This document shows positions 18,973 to 25,562 of a stretch of 27,033 nucleotides of DNA, in pieces. The stretch's first letter is position 1. The number at the start of each line of letters is the position of its first letter. Source of the stretch: Streptomyces chattanoogensis (GTDB lineage: Bacteria > Actinomycetota > Actinomycetes > Streptomycetales > Streptomycetaceae); the NCBI RefSeq assembly GCF_001294335.1, contig NZ_LGKG01000194.1, forward strand, positions 1-27,033. The letters are read 5' to 3'. Both the position numbers and the translations under genes were made by a program. Below the pieces are notes generated by a model, which did no database searches, was not told where the DNA came from, and saw nothing but the letters and a program-made list of their open reading frames with translations.

Positions 18973-19833
18973 ATGACGCAGCTTTCGCCTGCCCAGAAGC
19001 CGGTCGACAAGTCCCTGTACGGGGGAACCAGCTCGCGCCGCATCACGGTCCGCGACATCGCCGCCGCCAAGGAGCGCGGCGAGAAGTGGCCGATGCTCAC
19101 CGCGTACGACGCGATGACCGCCTCCGTTTTCGACGAGGCCGGCATCCCGGTCCTGCTCGTCGGCGATTCCATGGGCAACTGTCACCTCGGCTACGAGTCC
19201 ACCGTGCCGGTCACGATGGACGAGATCACCCTGCTGTCCGCCGCGGTCGTCCGCGGCACCAAGCGCGCCCTCGTCGTCGGCGATCTGCCGTTCGGCTCCT
19301 ACCAGGAAGGCCCGGTGCAGGCGCTGCGCAACGCCACCCGGCTGGTCAAGGAAGCCGGGGTGGGCGCCGTCAAGCTGGAGGGCGGCGAGCGCTCCGCGCA
19401 CCAGGTGGAGCTGCTGGTCAGCGCCGGTATTCCGGTGATGGCCCATGTGGGGCTCACCCCGCAGTCCGTCAACGCCTTCGGCGGCTACCCGGTCCAGGGC
19501 CGCGGCGAGGAGGCGGCCCAGCAGCTGCTGCGGGACGCCAAGGCGGTGCAGTCCGCGGGCGCCTTCGCCGTCGTCCTGGAGGCCGTACCGGCGGAACTGG
19601 CCGCCGAGGTCACCCGTTCCCTGCACATCCCGACCGTCGGCATCGGCGCCGGCCTGGACTGCGACGCCCAGGTGCTGGTGTGGACCGACATGGCGGGAAT
19701 GACGGCGGGGCGGATGCCGAAGTTCGTGAAGAAGTACCTCGAGATGCGTGAGCTGCTGGGCGGGGCGGCCAAGGCGTTCGCGGAGGACGTGGTCGGGGGC
19801 ACGTTCCCCGCGGAGGAGCACACCTTCCACTGA
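18973..19833 (+). CDS. panB: 3-methyl-2-oxobutanoate hydroxymethyltransferase (ketopantoate hydroxymethyltransferase)
   Basis: PanB transfers a hydroxymethyl group from 5,10-methylene-tetrahydrofolate to alpha-ketoisovalerate, the first committed step to pantothenate and coenzyme A. The 286-aa TIM-barrel protein has the family blocks ITVRDIAAAKERGEKWPMLTAYDA (24-47), the metal-binding VGDSMGNCHLGYEST (63-77), VKLEGGE, AHVGLTPQSVNAFGGY and IPTVGIGAG. AGGAG lies nine bases before ATG 18973. No other pantothenate gene is beside it. The 241-bp upstream region shared with the divergent DHA2 unit contains a GTC-rich stretch. Confidence 0.96.
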   Translation: MTQLSPAQKPVDKSLYGGTSSRRITVRDIAAAKERGEKWPMLTAYDAMTASVFDEAGIPVLLVGDSMGNCHLGYESTVPVTMDEITLLSAAVVRGTKRALVVGDLPFGSYQEGPVQALRNATRLVKEAGVGAVKLEGGERSAHQVELLVSAGIPVMAHVGLTPQSVNAFGGYPVQGRGEEAAQQLLRDAKAVQSAGAFAVVLEAVPAELAAEVTRSLHIPTVGIGAGLDCDAQVLVWTDMAGMTAGRMPKFVKKYLEMRELLGGAAKAFAEDVVGGTFPAEEHTFH

Positions 19834-19984: not shown

Positions 19985-20101
19985 TCACAGCAACACAAAC
20001 ACCAGGCCGAACACGAGGACCGACAGCACGGCGAGCGCGGCGACCACGCCGAGCCCGGCGATTCCAATGACAACGGCCTTTGCTCCTGCAGTATTTGCCA
20101 T
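19985..20101 (-). CDS. 38-residue single-pass membrane peptide
   Basis: The frame starting at ATG 20099-20101 gives a short polar N-terminus (MANTAGAK) followed by one continuous hydrophobic stretch to the C-terminus (AVVIGIAGLGVVAALAVLS...), a single membrane helix. GGAGGAGG lies 11 nt upstream, a strong though somewhat distant ribosome-binding site. The composition is quite unlike random high-GC translation, which would be Arg/Pro-rich. The family is not recognised. It is divergent from the DrrAB-like operon and shares with it the 158-bp region containing the 11-bp repeat array, so the two may be co-regulated. An upstream-extended frame to 20278 is spelled by the repeats and is not believed. 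Confidence 0.65.
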   Translation of the reverse strand: MANTAGAKAVVIGIAGLGVVAALAVLSVLVFGLVFVLL

Positions 20102-20173: not shown

Positions 20174-20239
20174 CCCGTCGGTACGGTGCCGGCCCGCTGT
20201 CGGTACGCTGTCGGCCTGCTGTCGGCCTGCTGTCGGTGC
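20174..20239. repeat. 11-bp direct repeat array, SARP-site-like, before the ABC operon
   Basis: Units start at 20196, 20207, 20218 and 20229 and read GCTGTCGGTAC, GCTGTCGGCCT, GCTGTCGGCCT and GCTGTCGGTGC. Two degenerate units in the same register are CCCGTCGGTAC (20174) and GGTGCCGGCCC (20185). The heptamer CTGTCGG recurs with 4-bp spacers, and the last heptamer ends at 20236, exactly 8 bp before GACACT (20245-20250). SARP activators bind such 11-bp-spaced heptamers 8 bp upstream of the -10. Confidence 0.7.
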
Positions 20240-20244
20240 CCCCT

Positions 20245-20250
20245 GACACT
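20245..20250 (+). promoter_or_regulatory. Candidate -10 element of the ABC transporter operon
   Basis: GACACT lies 8 bp downstream of the last repeat heptamer and nine bases before ATG 20260. Transcription would then start within about 3 nt of the start codon, which agrees with the lack of a ribosome-binding site there. No -35 hexamer is needed at promoters activated by this geometry. Confidence 0.4.
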
Positions 20251-20259
20251 GTTGACGGC

Positions 20260-21288
20260 ATGACGCGACAGACGACAACCACCAAGGGCGGCAACGCCGT
20301 CGAGGTGCGCGGTCTGGTCAAGCACTTCGGCGAGGTGAAGGCCGTCGACGGTGTGGACCTGGACGTGCGGGAAGGCACCGTGCTCGGCGTGCTCGGCCCC
20401 AACGGCGCCGGCAAGACGACCCTCGTACGGTGCCTGTCCACCCTCCTGGTGCCGGACGCCGGCCGCGCCGTGGTGGCCGGCTTCGACGTGGTGCGCCAGC
20501 CCCGCGCGCTGCGCCGCACGATCGGCCTGACCGGCCAGTACGCCTCGGTCGACGAGAAGCTCTCCGGCTGGGAGAACCTCTACATGATCGGGCGGCTGCT
20601 CGATCTGTCCCGCAAGGACGCCCGCAGGCGCGCCGACGAGCTGCTGGAGCGGTTCTCCCTCACCGAGGCCGCCAGGCGCCCCGCCGCGAAGTACTCCGGC
20701 GGCATGCGCCGCCGCCTGGACCTGGCCGCCTCGATGATCGGCCGCCCCGCGGTGCTCTATCTGGACGAGCCGACGACCGGGCTCGATCCCCGCACCCGTA
20801 ACGAGGTGTGGGAGGAGGTCCGGCGGATGGTGTCCGACGGCGCGACGGTGCTGCTCACCACCCAGTACATGGAAGAGGCCGAGCAGCTGGCCGATGAGCT
20901 GACGGTGATCGACCGCGGCCGGGTGATCGCCGAGGGCCGGGTCGACGAACTCAAGGCCAAGACCGGCGGTCGGACGCTGCAGATCCGGCCTGCCGTGCCC
21001 GGCGACCTGGACCGGATGGCGGACGCCATCGCCCAGGCCGGTCTCGACGGCATCGCGGGGGCGACGGCTGACCACGACGGGGGTGTGGTCAACGTCCCGA
21101 TCATCAGCGACGAGCAGCTGACCGCGGTGGTCGGGGTGCTCGGGCAGCGCGGCTTCGCGCTCTCCGGGATATCGACCCATCTGCCCAGCCTGGACGAGGT
21201 GTTCCTGGCCATCACGGGCCAGAAGACCTCGGAGAGCACGGACTCCGGCGAGGTGCCGGACCAGAGTTTTGCGGAGGTGTCGGCATGA
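20260..21288 (+). CDS. ABC transporter ATP-binding protein, DrrA-like (daunorubicin-resistance family)
   Basis: This is a 342-aa cytoplasmic ATPase that powers the permease encoded next. Walker A GPNGAGKTT at 46-54, Q-loop Gln93 (TGQYASVDEKLSGWENL), signature YSGGMRRR at 145-152, Walker B VLYLDEP at 165-171 with Glu170, D-loop GLDP. The switch position reads LLTTQYMEEAEQL, with Gln202 instead of His, which is usual in the DrrA subfamily. A ~100-residue C-terminal extension follows (GRTLQIRPAVPGDLDRM... LPSLDEVFLAITG), also DrrA-like. ATG 20260 gives the typical start. Its stop overlaps the permease ATG (ATGA). Family members export antibiotics or lipids; no substrate is indicated here. Confidence 0.92.
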   Translation: MTRQTTTTKGGNAVEVRGLVKHFGEVKAVDGVDLDVREGTVLGVLGPNGAGKTTLVRCLSTLLVPDAGRAVVAGFDVVRQPRALRRTIGLTGQYASVDEKLSGWENLYMIGRLLDLSRKDARRRADELLERFSLTEAARRPAAKYSGGMRRRLDLAASMIGRPAVLYLDEPTTGLDPRTRNEVWEEVRRMVSDGATVLLTTQYMEEAEQLADELTVIDRGRVIAEGRVDELKAKTGGRTLQIRPAVPGDLDRMADAIAQAGLDGIAGATADHDGGVVNVPIISDEQLTAVVGVLGQRGFALSGISTHLPSLDEVFLAITGQKTSESTDSGEVPDQSFAEVSA

Positions 21289-22115
21289 GTGCCGCGACAG
21301 TGACGGCGCCGGCTGTGAAGCCGGGCTCCGACGACGGACGGATCGGCCTGCGCGCCAATCTGCGGCACATCGGCGCGCTGGCGCGGCGCAACGCCCTGCA
21401 GATCAAGCAGGACCCGCAGTCGATGATGGACGTTCTACTGGCGCCCGTCATCTTCATCCTGCTGTTCGTCTACGTCTTCGGCGGCGCGATCTTCGGCAAG
21501 GGCCACCAGGACCTCTCCGTCCAGTACATGGTGCCCGGCATCATGGCGATGATGGGCATGAACATCGCCATGGCGGTGGGCAGCGGCGTCAACGAGGACT
21601 TCCGCAAGGGGGTCATGGACCGCTTCCGGACCATGCCGATAGCCCGGTCGTCGGTCCTGATAGCCAAGATCGTCGTCGAGATCGGCCGGATGCTGATCGC
21701 CACCGCGATCCTGCTCGGCATGGGCTTCGTGCTGGGCCTGGAGATCAAGGGCGGCGTCCTCGCCCTGCTCGGCGCGGTCGCGCTCGCCACGGCCTTCGGC
21801 GCCGCCCTGATGTGGATCTTCATCCTGCTGGGGCTGAGCGTGCAGACCCCGCAGGCGGTGCAGGGCATGGCGATGCTGGTGCTGATGCCGCTGCAGTTCG
21901 GCTCGTCGATCTTCGCCCCGCCGGCCTCGATGCCGGGCTGGCTGGAGGGCTTCACCAAGGTCAATCCGCTCTCCAACCTGGCGGACGCCTCCCGGGCCCT
22001 GGTCAACGGCCAGGGTGCGGTGGCGCACCCGGTACTGATCACCCTCGGCTGGACGGTCGTCATCACGGCCGTCACCATGCCGCTCGCGGTCGCCAAGTTC
22101 CGTAAGAAGACATGA
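21285..22115 (+). CDS. ABC-2 type permease, DrrB-like
   Basis: The 276-aa protein has a ~45-residue cytoplasmic N-terminus and six membrane helices. The ABC-2 features include RNALQIKQDPQSMMDVLLAPVIFILLFVYVFGGAI, a VNEDFRKGVMDRFRTMPIARSSVLIAKI coupling segment, and the late SIFAPPASMPGWLEGFTKVNPLSNLADASRAL. It should form a homodimeric pore with the ATPase encoded just before it. ATG 21285 overlaps the ATPase stop, so translation is coupled. The 3' end lies inside a 20-bp repeat that reproduces the stop codon twice more (22098-22158). Confidence 0.92.
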   Translation: MSAATVTAPAVKPGSDDGRIGLRANLRHIGALARRNALQIKQDPQSMMDVLLAPVIFILLFVYVFGGAIFGKGHQDLSVQYMVPGIMAMMGMNIAMAVGSGVNEDFRKGVMDRFRTMPIARSSVLIAKIVVEIGRMLIATAILLGMGFVLGLEIKGGVLALLGAVALATAFGAALMWIFILLGLSVQTPQAVQGMAMLVLMPLQFGSSIFAPPASMPGWLEGFTKVNPLSNLADASRALVNGQGAVAHPVLITLGWTVVITAVTMPLAVAKFRKKT

Positions 22116-22208: not shown

Positions 22209-25200
22209 TCAGACGAGGGCGGTGGCCTCCTCCAGAGAGAGGCCACCGCCTTCGGCGTACGCCCGCTCGTACGCCGTGTCGCCCAGCAGCGCCCGCGCCG
22301 CCTCCTCCGTGCGTCTGCGGTCCTCGCGCACGAGCTGCGGCGGCATGTGCGAGGACGACCTCAGTGCGTCGTATGCCCCCACCAGGCGGGCCGCGTCCGC
22401 GCCGCCGCGCTCGCCGCGGACGGCCATCAACACCCTCGCCCCGGTGAGCAGTTGCATCACCGCCAGGTCCGGAGCGATGATCTGCGCCAGCTGGTCCTGC
22501 ATCAGCGCCAGCGCCGCCCGGAACCTCGGCAGCAGGTCCCCGCCGCGGCCCTCGTCGGCATCGAGCGAGACCAGCGCCGCCTCCAGGACCCCCAGGAACA
22601 CCTCCGGGGCACGCGAGCCGAACAGCTCGCGCACCGCCTCCAGTTCCGCGCGGGCCTCCGCCGTGCGCCGCTGGGCGGCCAGGTGCATCGCCAGCGTCAT
22701 CCGCGCGAACGGCACCGCGTCGCGGCCGCCGCTGACCTCCTTGCCCTGCGCTATCACCTCGCGCAGCAGCCGCTCCCCCGCCTCCTCCTGGCCGTCCTCG
22801 AGCAGTACGCCGCCGAGCCGGCCGCGCAGCAGCATCGTCTGGCCGTGCGCGCCCAGGTCCTCGGCGTGCACCATCGCCGCCCGGTAGTCCTTCGCCGCCG
22901 GCGCGTACTCACCGCGCTTCTCCCAGGACTCGCCGCGCCCGGACAGCGCCTCGGCGGCGCCCCAGGCATCGCCGATCCGGAGGAAGATCCGCAGCGCCTC
23001 GTCGGCGTCCGCCAACGCCCCTTCCAGGCTGCCGGGCCGGTCGTTGAGGATCTTGGAGCGCAGCTGCAGGACGTAGGCGAGCTCCCACTCGTAACCCAGG
23101 TCGCGGCAGGCGCGCACCGCACCGTCGATCCGCTCCGCCAGCTCCTCGACCCGGCCGGTGATCAGTACCGCGTAGTACCACAGGACGCCCGGCATCCGGC
23201 AGGTCTGCGGCATCCCGCTGCGGTAGGCGTCGATGATCGCCGCCAGCTCCTCCTGCATCTCCGGTCTGCGCAGCGACTCGATGTCGCTGTCCAGGCAGGA
23301 CAGCGCCACCAGCCGGACCCCGCGGCGGGCCTCGACGAGCTGCTCGGGGTCCATCGGCGGCGGTTTGTCGATGGACCGCTCGAAGAGGTCGGGGGCGGCG
23401 GCGACCGGTGCGGTGAAGGGGTTGGGGCCGAGCGTGCCGGCCGCCCCCGCCCAGTGGCGGGCGTCGCTGAGGTGGTCGCGCAGCAGCCAGAACCAGTGCA
23501 GGGACAGGACCAGGCACAGCGCCTCGTGTTCGTCGCGGGCGGCCACGGCGCGGCGCAGCGCGGTGCGCAGGTTGTCGTGCTCGAGCTCCAGACGGTCCAT
23601 CGCGGTGCGCTGGCCGGGGCCGCGCAGCAACGGGTCGGTGGTACGGGCCAGTTCGCGGTAGGCGACCAGATGGCGGCGCTCGGTCCGGGCCCGTTCACCG
23701 GCCTCGTCCAGCCGCTCGCCGGCGTACTCCCCCACCGTCTCCAGCAGCCGGTAGCGCATCGCCCCGTCGGGCGCGGGCGCGGCCACCACCAGCGATTTGT
23801 CGATCAGCGAGCCGAGCAGTGCGGCGACATCGCGGCCGTCGACGCCCTCGCCCGCGCAGACCTCTTCGGCGGCGGCCAGGTCGCAGCCGCCGGCGAAGAC
23901 GGACAGCCGGCGCAGCACCGCGCGTTCGGGCTCGCCGGTCAGCTCCCAGGACCAGTCCACGACGGCGCGCAGGGTCTGCTGGCGGGGCAGGAGCGTACGG
24001 CTGCCGCTGGTCAGCAGCCGGAAGCGGTCGTCGAGGCGGTCGGCGATCCCCCGCGGGGAGAGCAGCCGCAGCCGGGCGGCGGCGAGTTCGATGGCCAGCG
24101 GCAGTCCGTCCAGGCGGCGGCAGATCTCGGCGCAGGCCGCTGCGGTGTCCTCGTCGGCCTCGATCCGGAAGCCGGGCCGGACGGCGGCCCCGCGATCGGC
24201 GAGGAGGCGCAGCGCCACCGGGTCGGGCAGCGGCTCGACGGGCCGCAGCACCTCGCCCGGTACGGCCAGCGGTTCGCGGCTGGTGGCCAGCACCGTGACG
24301 CCGGGGCATTCGGCCAGCAGCCGCTCGGCGAGCTCGGCGGCGGCGCCGATCACATGCTCGCAGTTGTCGAGGACGAGCAGCATCCGGCGGCCTGCGCACT
24401 GCTCGGCGAGGCGGGCGAGCGGGTCCAGCGCGGTGGGGTCGCCGGCCGCGCGCAGCCCGTCGGCGGCGGTGCCGCGCACCACGGTCTCGCGGGCGCCGAG
24501 GGCGGTGAGCACCGCCTCGGGGACGGTCGCCGGGTCGTCGAGGGGGGCCAGCTCCGCCAGCCATACGCCGTGCGGCCAGGCGTCCGGCGCGGCGGCCGCG
24601 GCGCTCTCGGCGCCCTCCTGCGACAGCCGGGTCTTGCCGGCGCCGCCCGGCCCCAGCAGGGTCACCAGGCGGTGGGCGGCCAGGTCGTCGCGGAGGGCCG
24701 CGATATCGGCGTCGCGGCCGACGAAGGAGGTGAGGCGGGCGCGGAGATTGCCGGGGCGGCGACCGGCGCGCTCGGAACCAGCAGGCCACTCAGCGCAACC
24801 CACTTCGGCTCCTGCCCCGGGCTGCCACGGTGCGGGACCCCGCTGCGGGCTCAGCAGCTCGGCGTGCAGGGCGCGCAGCTCGGGGCCGGGGTCGGTGCCC
24901 AGGCGGTCGTCGAGGCCGGTGCGTATGCCCTCGTACGCGGCGAGCGCCTCGGCGCTGCGGCCGGCGGCCCGCAGGGCGCGCAGCCGCAGGGCCTGGAGGG
25001 GCTCGTCCAGGGGGTGGTCCTGGCAGAGCGCGGTCAGGGTGGGCAGCGCCCGGTCCGGCCGGCCCAGGGCGAGGTCGGCGGCGAGGCGGCTGCGCCGGGC
25101 GTCCAGGCGGCGGCTCTCGGCGCGGGCCGCCTCGGGGCCCGCATCGGGCAGATCGTCGAGCGCCGGGCCGCGCCAGAGCGCCAGCGCCTCGTCGAGCAGG

Positions 25201-25562
25201 GCGGCGGCGCGGGCCGGGTCGGCCTCGTCGAGCGCCCGGCCGCCCTCCGTGGCGAGCCGCTCGAAACGGTGCAGATCGACGTCGTCGGGCCCGGCGCACA
25301 GGCGGTAGCCGCCGTCGACGGAGGCGATGGCGGCGTGGCCGAGGGCCCGGCGCAGCCGGCCGACCAGCGCCTGGAGGGCACCGGCCGCGTCGGCCGGCGG
25401 TGCCGCGCCCCAGACCTCGTCGATCAGGACGTCCGGGGACAGCGCCCGGCCGGGGCGCAGCGCGAGGGCGGCGAGCAGGGCGCGCAGCCGTGCGCCACCG
25501 AGGGCGACGGGGGTTCCGTCGGCCCGGGCGGCCTGCGTGGTGCCGAGAATTCCGTAGCGCAC
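22209..25562 (-). CDS. SARP-family regulator with NB-ARC (STAND) ATPase and TPR-like C-terminus (AfsR-like)
   Basis: A 1117-aa regulator in three parts. Residues 1-75 form an OmpR-like winged DNA-binding domain (VALGGARLRALLAALAL, LIDEVWG, LQALVGRLRRAL), and about 80-240 the bacterial transcriptional activation domain (BTAD). Residues about 275-560 are an NB-ARC ATPase with P-loop GPGGAGKTRL (304-313), Walker B LLVLDNCEHV (395-404) and GLPLAIELAAARLRLLSP. The rest is helical, TPR-like. Such proteins activate secondary-metabolite or exporter genes in response to nucleotide or ligand binding. GTG 25562 is preferred: the usual N-terminus MRYGILGTT starts there and GACAAT stands six bases upstream, suggesting a leaderless mRNA. 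GTG 25670 would add 36 Ala/Pro-rich residues. It ends convergently with the DrrAB-like operon. Confidence 0.88.
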   Translation of the reverse strand: MRYGILGTTQAARADGTPVALGGARLRALLAALALRPGRALSPDVLIDEVWGAAPPADAAGALQALVGRLRRALGHAAIASVDGGYRLCAGPDDVDLHRFERLATEGGRALDEADPARAAALLDEALALWRGPALDDLPDAGPEAARAESRRLDARRSRLAADLALGRPDRALPTLTALCQDHPLDEPLQALRLRALRAAGRSAEALAAYEGIRTGLDDRLGTDPGPELRALHAELLSPQRGPAPWQPGAGAEVGCAEWPAGSERAGRRPGNLRARLTSFVGRDADIAALRDDLAAHRLVTLLGPGGAGKTRLSQEGAESAAAAAPDAWPHGVWLAELAPLDDPATVPEAVLTALGARETVVRGTAADGLRAAGDPTALDPLARLAEQCAGRRMLLVLDNCEHVIGAAAELAERLLAECPGVTVLATSREPLAVPGEVLRPVEPLPDPVALRLLADRGAAVRPGFRIEADEDTAAACAEICRRLDGLPLAIELAAARLRLLSPRGIADRLDDRFRLLTSGSRTLLPRQQTLRAVVDWSWELTGEPERAVLRRLSVFAGGCDLAAAEEVCAGEGVDGRDVAALLGSLIDKSLVVAAPAPDGAMRYRLLETVGEYAGERLDEAGERARTERRHLVAYRELARTTDPLLRGPGQRTAMDRLELEHDNLRTALRRAVAARDEHEALCLVLSLHWFWLLRDHLSDARHWAGAAGTLGPNPFTAPVAAAPDLFERSIDKPPPMDPEQLVEARRGVRLVALSCLDSDIESLRRPEMQEELAAIIDAYRSGMPQTCRMPGVLWYYAVLITGRVEELAERIDGAVRACRDLGYEWELAYVLQLRSKILNDRPGSLEGALADADEALRIFLRIGDAWGAAEALSGRGESWEKRGEYAPAAKDYRAAMVHAEDLGAHGQTMLLRGRLGGVLLEDGQEEAGERLLREVIAQGKEVSGGRDAVPFARMTLAMHLAAQRRTAEARAELEAVRELFGSRAPEVFLGVLEAALVSLDADEGRGGDLLPRFRAALALMQDQLAQIIAPDLAVMQLLTGARVLMAVRGERGGADAARLVGAYDALRSSSHMPPQLVREDRRRTEEAARALLGDTAYERAYAEGGGLSLEEATALV

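Follow-up and report, generated by a model that had tools for sequence, protein, structure and literature searches.

SARPs have been described mainly as activators of antibiotic clusters (PMC10972967). AfsR binds two operator repeats that extend from -40 to -19, where its residue R92 touches T-38 and T-27, and the -10 element of the afsS promoter reads CACTGT (PMC10936776). AfsR and PafBC both act by sigma adaptation (PMC10936776, PMC11804915). The consensus of RecA-NDp/PafBC promoters is tTGTCRgtg, followed after 8 nt by TannnT (PMC5656591). In S. avermitilis, repair genes carry BTGTCV at -26, and 22.2% of mRNAs have leaders of <9 nt (PMC8780764). OtrC is reported to be a multidrug exporter (PMC3533511); a term search of the excerpted text of that paper found no study of the natural otrC promoter. 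We recognised no publication on the regulator-pump pair treated below in the literature searched, whose scope excludes most subscription journals.

The window, by which we mean the whole stretch of S. chattanoogensis DNA that was analysed (27,033 nucleotides), carries on its + strand drrA (20260..21288; TIGR01188, 377.8 bits against a cut-off of 312.45), the ATPase of a DrrAB/OtrC-type exporter, and drrB (21285..22115; PF01061, 98.8 bits), its ABC-2 membrane subunit. Upstream, four perfect CTGTCGG heptamers on the + strand (20197..20236) start at 20197, 20208, 20219 and 20230, a pitch of 11 bp; two degenerate units, CCGTCGG (20175-20181) and GTGCCGG (20186-20192), precede them in register. Genes and units lie where the preliminary description had put them. 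The final heptamer ends at 20236, ahead of the drrA ATG at 20260, and the last three heptamers (20208-20236) form the core that orthologue comparison defines as conserved. When up to two mismatches are allowed, the three-unit pattern has three overlapping matches in the window and none in 100 dinucleotide-preserving shuffles. A search of the 9.13-Mb genome, which had been proposed as a check, placed the exact pair CTGTCGG-N4-CTGTCGG solely at the drrA array (three overlapping places); the one-mismatch pair occurs at seven places elsewhere, vs nine for a reversed control pattern.

Orthologous loci were compared in two sets. The named set comprises 79 loci with the SARP gene, 65 of which have drrA. 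The other set is anchored on panB (18973..19833, + strand; TIGR00222, 314.5 bits), which lies outside the system, and consists of 80 loci fetched out of 119 other genomes of the genus with a panB match; drrA lies within the fetched <=10 kb in 71 of the 80. Together with the window this gives 137 upstream regions, with 133 distinct sites and with some species in both sets. The three-unit core stands upstream of drrA in all 137, so that an absence of the repeats before orthologous operons, which by the preliminary description would have refuted its regulator-target pair, was not encountered. A 42-bp matrix scores the drrA sites at 11.1-61.9, and none of 2493 random 270-bp windows drawn from these loci exceeds 3.9; the matrix was trained and tested on identical sites, and the range is a measure of their uniformity, not an independent prediction. 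Further units in register upstream of the core occur in 29 of the 137 promoters, vs 10 of 822 off-register control positions. Judged by its sequence, the array is a strongly conserved, genus-wide control site of Streptomyces. A hairpin that is probably the terminator of panB carries TGTCG in its 3' arm, in or near the array, in 22 of 136 orthologous regions (L026, L027 and L016, for example), so that some bases may belong to both terminator and operator.

All 137 drrA sites have T at position 44. Because of this invariance we place the predicted -10 element of the window at CACTGT (20247-20252, + strand), whose last T is the invariant base; the second base is A in 83 of the 137 sites, and 73 have the form [TC]A...T. 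The hexamer that had been proposed as the -10 element, GACACT, is present at 20245-20250, but conservation puts the element two bases further on, and GACACT was dropped. The distance of 8 bp from the last repeat, which had been counted to GACACT, needs a different footing: CACTGT lies 10 bp from the end of the heptamer or, counted from where the conserved nonamer ends (TGTCRGTG with the first base added), 8 bp, and a 3' repeat about 8 bp from the -10 element, as expected of a SARP operator, is retained. The other expected property, direct heptamer repeats at a spacing of 11 bp (or 22 bp), is present in the window and in the 137 orthologues. An in-frame drrA ATG lies 22-23 bp past the last heptamer in every one of the 137 regions: the first such ATG is at 23 bp in 77 and at 22 bp in 30, and the remaining 30, read from the sequences, have one at 14 or 17 bp and then another at 23 bp. 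If +1 is set at the A of the ATG, T bases of the window fall at -27 and -38. Because of this AfsR-contact register and the ATG spacing, the drrAB mRNA is probably leaderless, with its predicted start (20259..20260, + strand) at the ATG or one base before it and not at about 20257 as previously put forward.

Because position, identity and primers agree, the window exporter is, on sequence grounds, the orthologue of S. rimosus OtrC. The Otr(C) model NF000106 is the best-scoring model for the window DrrA, at 526.4 bits and under its cut-off of 750; the S. rimosus protein at L020 is likewise under it, at 647.5. The two DrrA proteins are 85% identical. Eight otrC primers in the excerpted text of PMC3533511, namely the orf1, orf2, CZ1 and CZ2 pairs (otrCf and otrCr were left out), align in the expected order, with 0-1 mismatches each, to the drrAB that is linked to panB in S. 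rimosus L020.

The gene convergent with the exporter operon (22209..25562, - strand, GTG start) encodes a SARP-STAND regulator, with coordinates as claimed: BTAD (139.2 bits), Trans_reg_C (33.4) and nSTAND1 (31.4) are all over the Pfam cut-offs, and Trans_reg_C, BTAD and a STAND NTPase are the combination that marks a large SARP. For a C-terminal TPR, Pfam gives no match at E 0.001, and NCBIfam gives only sub-cut-off matches to TPR proteins. The S. coelicolor counterpart is presumably SCO2259, on which a literature search gave no match. The first 238 residues align with AfsR chain 8hvr_I at 2.6e-32; the regulator is not AfsR itself, as the AfsR model NF053617 gives it 169.9 bits against a cut-off of 1430. 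By hand reading of the alignment, AfsR residues R92, R94, W74 and P79 are retained, and T88, R87, Q48 and S91 are A, Q, R and G in the window SARP; because these four differ, DNA specificity cannot be carried over from AfsR. Autoregulation was discarded: none of five non-drrA places with a core score >=12, in about 4.4 million strand positions, is at the SARP start.

Pump, operator and convergent SARP-STAND gene largely move and decay together. In the 71 panB-anchored genomes with drrA and operator near panB, one locus (L116) has the SARP-drrAB block inverted with convergence retained. G007, G049, G067 and G104 carry the complete block with its operator at the opposite side of panB; G037, G043, G047 and G105 lack a DrrA of >58% identity and a SARP match at 1e-150, and their fetched flanks contain no operator; and G057 (L147) is a remnant with drrA lost and the SARP in two pieces. 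Among the 80 fetched loci, SARP coverage is >=1000 of 1117 residues in 67 and 847-848 in three; it is 955 in the remnant of G057 and zero in eight loci, of which four are moved blocks; at L145 (G045) the SARP is internally deleted (313 of 1117 residues), and operator and pump are intact. The SARP gene is convergent with the pump in all 65 named loci having drrA, as in the window, but the claim that it adjoins the pump does not extend to L058, L059 and L064, where 4-5.5 kb separate the two. In S. rimosus (L020) and two other genomes (L097, L098), about 1.8 kb lies between panB and drrA, and the operator stays with drrA; the L098 insert holds, by eye, two AzlC/AzlD-like genes and an Lrp-like regulator. 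With the array before every drrA compared and the block largely gained and lost as one, the proposed regulator-target pair is borne out as a conserved one, although the linkage argument is of limited power because the SARP is conserved genus-wide. The array had also been suggested to serve a divergent 38-aa peptide, whose ORF of 38 codons is found at 19985-20101 on the - strand as described. The peptide has no tblastn match (E<=0.01) in 159 loci, in a search run without a positive control and with a query so short as to be insensitive, and the panB-drrA gap is only about 95-140 bp in many loci with the operator intact; this second role is thus not supported.

The operator recurs elsewhere in the genus. 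We scanned 61 genomes with a sequence-only model built from 63 drrA sites and chose twenty secondary places among the matches listed. Eight stand before TetX-like monooxygenases and three before a confirmed SDR gene; by eye, one precedes a probable SDR (L214) and one a Rox-like flavoprotein (L205); two precede alpha/beta hydrolases, one a further drrA (L212), and four either other genes or none that is clear. L223 and L224 were set aside as apparent chance matches. Within the fetched 2.5-5 kb around these places, no match to this SARP was found except at L212. The monooxygenase family (FMO; FAD_binding_3 in Pfam) occurs in 57 of 121 genomes (95 rows), the SDR family in 26 of 121. With the drrA-only matrix, 27 of the 70 FMO upstream rows examined (22 of 30 with loci, 5 of 40 others) and 24 of the 26 SDR upstreams score above 3.9, in scanned regions of 420-590 bp that are longer than the 270-bp null windows; unit counts used whole loci. 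Genomes G061-G120, unused in finding the families, gave positives at 8 of the 13 best FMO loci and at all 10 SDR loci. T occupies position 44 in 26 of 27 FMO and 23 of 24 SDR sites; most FMO sites are separated from the ATG by about 70 bp that include a purine-rich stretch. That a single operator serves every FMO gene can be discarded, since eight of the top 30 loci, like 35 of the 40 lower-ranked upstreams, score below the null maximum. By eye, the FMO loci L247, L259, L260 and L263 have GGAACG/CGTTCC palindromes instead of the array, and our guess there would be TetR-type control. Unlinked targets occur in 3 of 17 SARP-negative vs 36 of 104 SARP-positive genomes, which is not significant (p 0.26); the negatives in this test are unreliable, as six SARP candidates were scored per genome and G031, called negative, has a 930-residue SARP match at locus L102.

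The host genome has neither the FMO nor the SDR family at the thresholds used. A looser pattern, three TGTCRG at the same pitch, gave two further exact places there, one (C148) preceding an alpha/beta-hydrolase gene and one (C2) right before or within the start of a P450-like gene, as read by eye. By matrix score, C148:46271 before the alpha/beta-hydrolase gene (25.7) is the sole good secondary site besides drrA; the other ten secondary loci among the matches listed score <=3.1 or are repeats of one place. The C2 place (C2:88635-88662, L169) has three TGTCAG units at 11-bp pitch and a score of 3.1.

Related SARPs present a similar arrangement. Those at L053 and L070 face a siderophore-interacting-protein gene (Pfam SIP + FAD_binding_9), in front of which stand variants of the triple repeat (core scores 9.4 and 6.4). 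Downstream of second SARP copies, five of 39 regions hold a SIP gene and one (G029) a second drrAB; some of these regions were placed by a guessed gene end, so misses prove little. A triple repeat is found at each of the six, with full scores of 19.8, 22.9, 2.0, 5.6, 12.6 and 1.5, four above and two (2.0, 1.5) below the drrA-matrix null of 3.9, and a TGTAGG variant of the heptamer occurs at two of the six and at L053. The second drrAB of G029 (L369), with triple repeat and second SARP, is apparently a duplicate of the whole module.

With the array, its conservation at fixed spacing, the co-movement of the block and the enrichment of the site at two unlinked families observed, a SARP operator for the exporter, with predicted binding, is well supported. 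We consider it likely that the SARP concerned is the SARP-STAND protein of 22209-25562, and that the array drives a leaderless drrAB. SARP protomers would line up along the 11-bp repeats. Substituting for a -35 element, the downstream units would keep sigma region 4 of the HrdB polymerase in position above the weak -10 element CACTGT, in the sigma adaptation mode solved for AfsR. Transcription from the drrA ATG, or from one base before it, would yield a drrAB mRNA that has no leader and encodes a multidrug exporter of the OtrC type. Through its STAND part the activator may be gated by a signal, which could be a drug or a stress cue. The same operator before TetX-like monooxygenases and an SDR enzyme suggests a detoxification regulon of exporter, monooxygenase and SDR. 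We infer binding by this SARP, activation, the start site, the signal and the control of unlinked targets.

The last unit of the core leads to an extended reading, which adds to the SARP operator and does not exclude it: the SARP would bind the repeats, the last unit would double as a PafBC/RecA-NDp -26 element, and the pump would answer both the SARP signal and DNA damage. We hold this to be possible but rather less than probable. At drrA, unit 3 is TGTCRG in 137 of 137 sites, vs 112 for unit 1 and 120 for unit 2; it is TGTCAG in 40, TGTCRGTG in 112 and the full TTGTCRGTG in 80, its first base is T in 62%, and A is fifth in TGTCRG in 29%, vs 4% and 1% in units 1-2. In the 51 FMO and SDR sites, TGTCRG is present in 35, TGTCAG in 0 and TTGTCRGTG in 4. 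TGTCRGTG occurs in 108 of 133 distinct drrA sites vs 17 of 51 FMO and SDR sites (Fisher 1.4e-9, uncorrected for relatedness, so that close relatives count as independent). The published spacing (PMC5656591) equals that at drrA, and the host genome holds 21 leaderless promoters of the form TTGTCRGTG-N9-ANNNT-N7-ATG (L330-L350) vs 0 for the reversed control. The genes behind them include uvrB (L344), an AlkZ-like DNA glycosylase (L337), an MGMT-type DNA-binding protein (L330), a large helicase (L340, partial) and a TnpB gene (L335); L345 and L349 have, by eye, the same TnpB. This class resembles the PafBC/RecA-NDp form, in contrast to the excerpted account of S. venezuelae, in which the M. smegmatis PafBC motif is not apparently conserved (PMC9380542), a report that also counts against the extended reading. 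The resemblance of the last unit nevertheless means that DNA damage may be a second input. The window itself departs from the consensus, with unit 3 CTGTCGGTG in place of TTGTCRGTG and CACTGT in place of TANNNT, and the constraint on unit 3 could stem from the SARP itself, seated against sigma region 4. The resemblance of unit 3 and the -10 to the element would also fit a plain PafBC-type promoter whose upstream repeats have no role, but that is very improbable: units 1 and 2 keep TGTCRG, in register, in the numbers given, and the single-unit promoters of the host lack upstream units (20 of the 21 inspected; best core score 1.9 vs a threshold of 12).

It is more of a question which protein reads the heptamers. 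They could be bound in trans by another SARP-like or OmpR-type winged-helix activator, with the neighbouring SARP-STAND protein controlling something else. Streptomyces genomes each hold many SARPs (tens of first-look candidates), the FMO and SDR genes carry the operator with no SARP match in the fetched 2.5-5 kb, and G045 keeps its operator despite a broken SARP; but the block is gained, moved and lost as one, and paralogous SARPs face triple-repeat targets of their own, and we find the trans activator doubtful. A neutral, functionless tandem duplication by slippage is barely credible. The window units are more numerous and more uniform than those of most orthologues (three identical 11-bp steps), and slippage is still possible for the extra upstream copies; for the three-unit core it is contradicted by a fixed distance in 137 of 137 orthologous promoters. 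The SARP operator is the reading we retain. Its widest form we consider unlikely: a core, non-cluster SARP-STAND sensor would run a xenobiotic-defence regulon, and at the exporter the last unit would be merged with the PafBC -26 element, so that two sigma-adaptor activators would meet at a single site and couple drug sensing with the response to DNA damage.

Four points go beyond the preliminary description: conservation across the genus, the pump's identity as OtrC, additional target families and the PafBC/RecA-NDp-like last unit. The SARP here seems to belong to the genome that Streptomyces share, with a link to a multidrug exporter and, through its operator, to families of antibiotic-modifying enzymes. 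If this is true, there is a testable switch for the drug tolerance intrinsic to antibiotic producers and OtrC gains a candidate activator, and the merged last unit would be a test case for two sigma-adaptation factors at one site.

Compared with AfsR and the afs box of S. coelicolor afsS (PMC10936776), the locus has the same kind of regulator, a large SARP with an NTPase part, the same 11-bp repeats and the same -10 letters, CACTGT, and, when the ATG is taken as +1, its T bases at -27 and -38 coincide with the AfsR contacts; it differs in its heptamer, in having at least three units, in having an exporter as target and in several DNA-contact residues. OtcR and other cluster-situated SARPs (PMC4393881, PMC10972967) also use two or three 11-bp repeats upstream of the -10 element and directly activate a neighbouring operon, as predicted for the window SARP; they sit in antibiotic clusters and read other words, such as CGGTCGAAG at oxyI, whereas the window SARP adjoins panB in most genomes compared. 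RecA-NDp/PafBC promoters (PMC5656591, PMC11804915) share with drrA the element tTGTCRgtg, the 8 nt and a -10 element placed as for unit 3, but have one unit where drrA has at least three in register, and the drrA -10 element is weak (A second in 83 of 137). The FMO targets have as their best solved relatives AbsH3 (6n04, 1.6e-75) and several Tet(X) chains, although Tet(X) proper is a different matter, with NF033111 giving 139.4 bits against a cut-off of 750. The pump itself is closest to OtrC: the S. rimosus otrC primers fit the panB-linked drrAB to which the window DrrA is orthologous, and the window gene belongs to another species.
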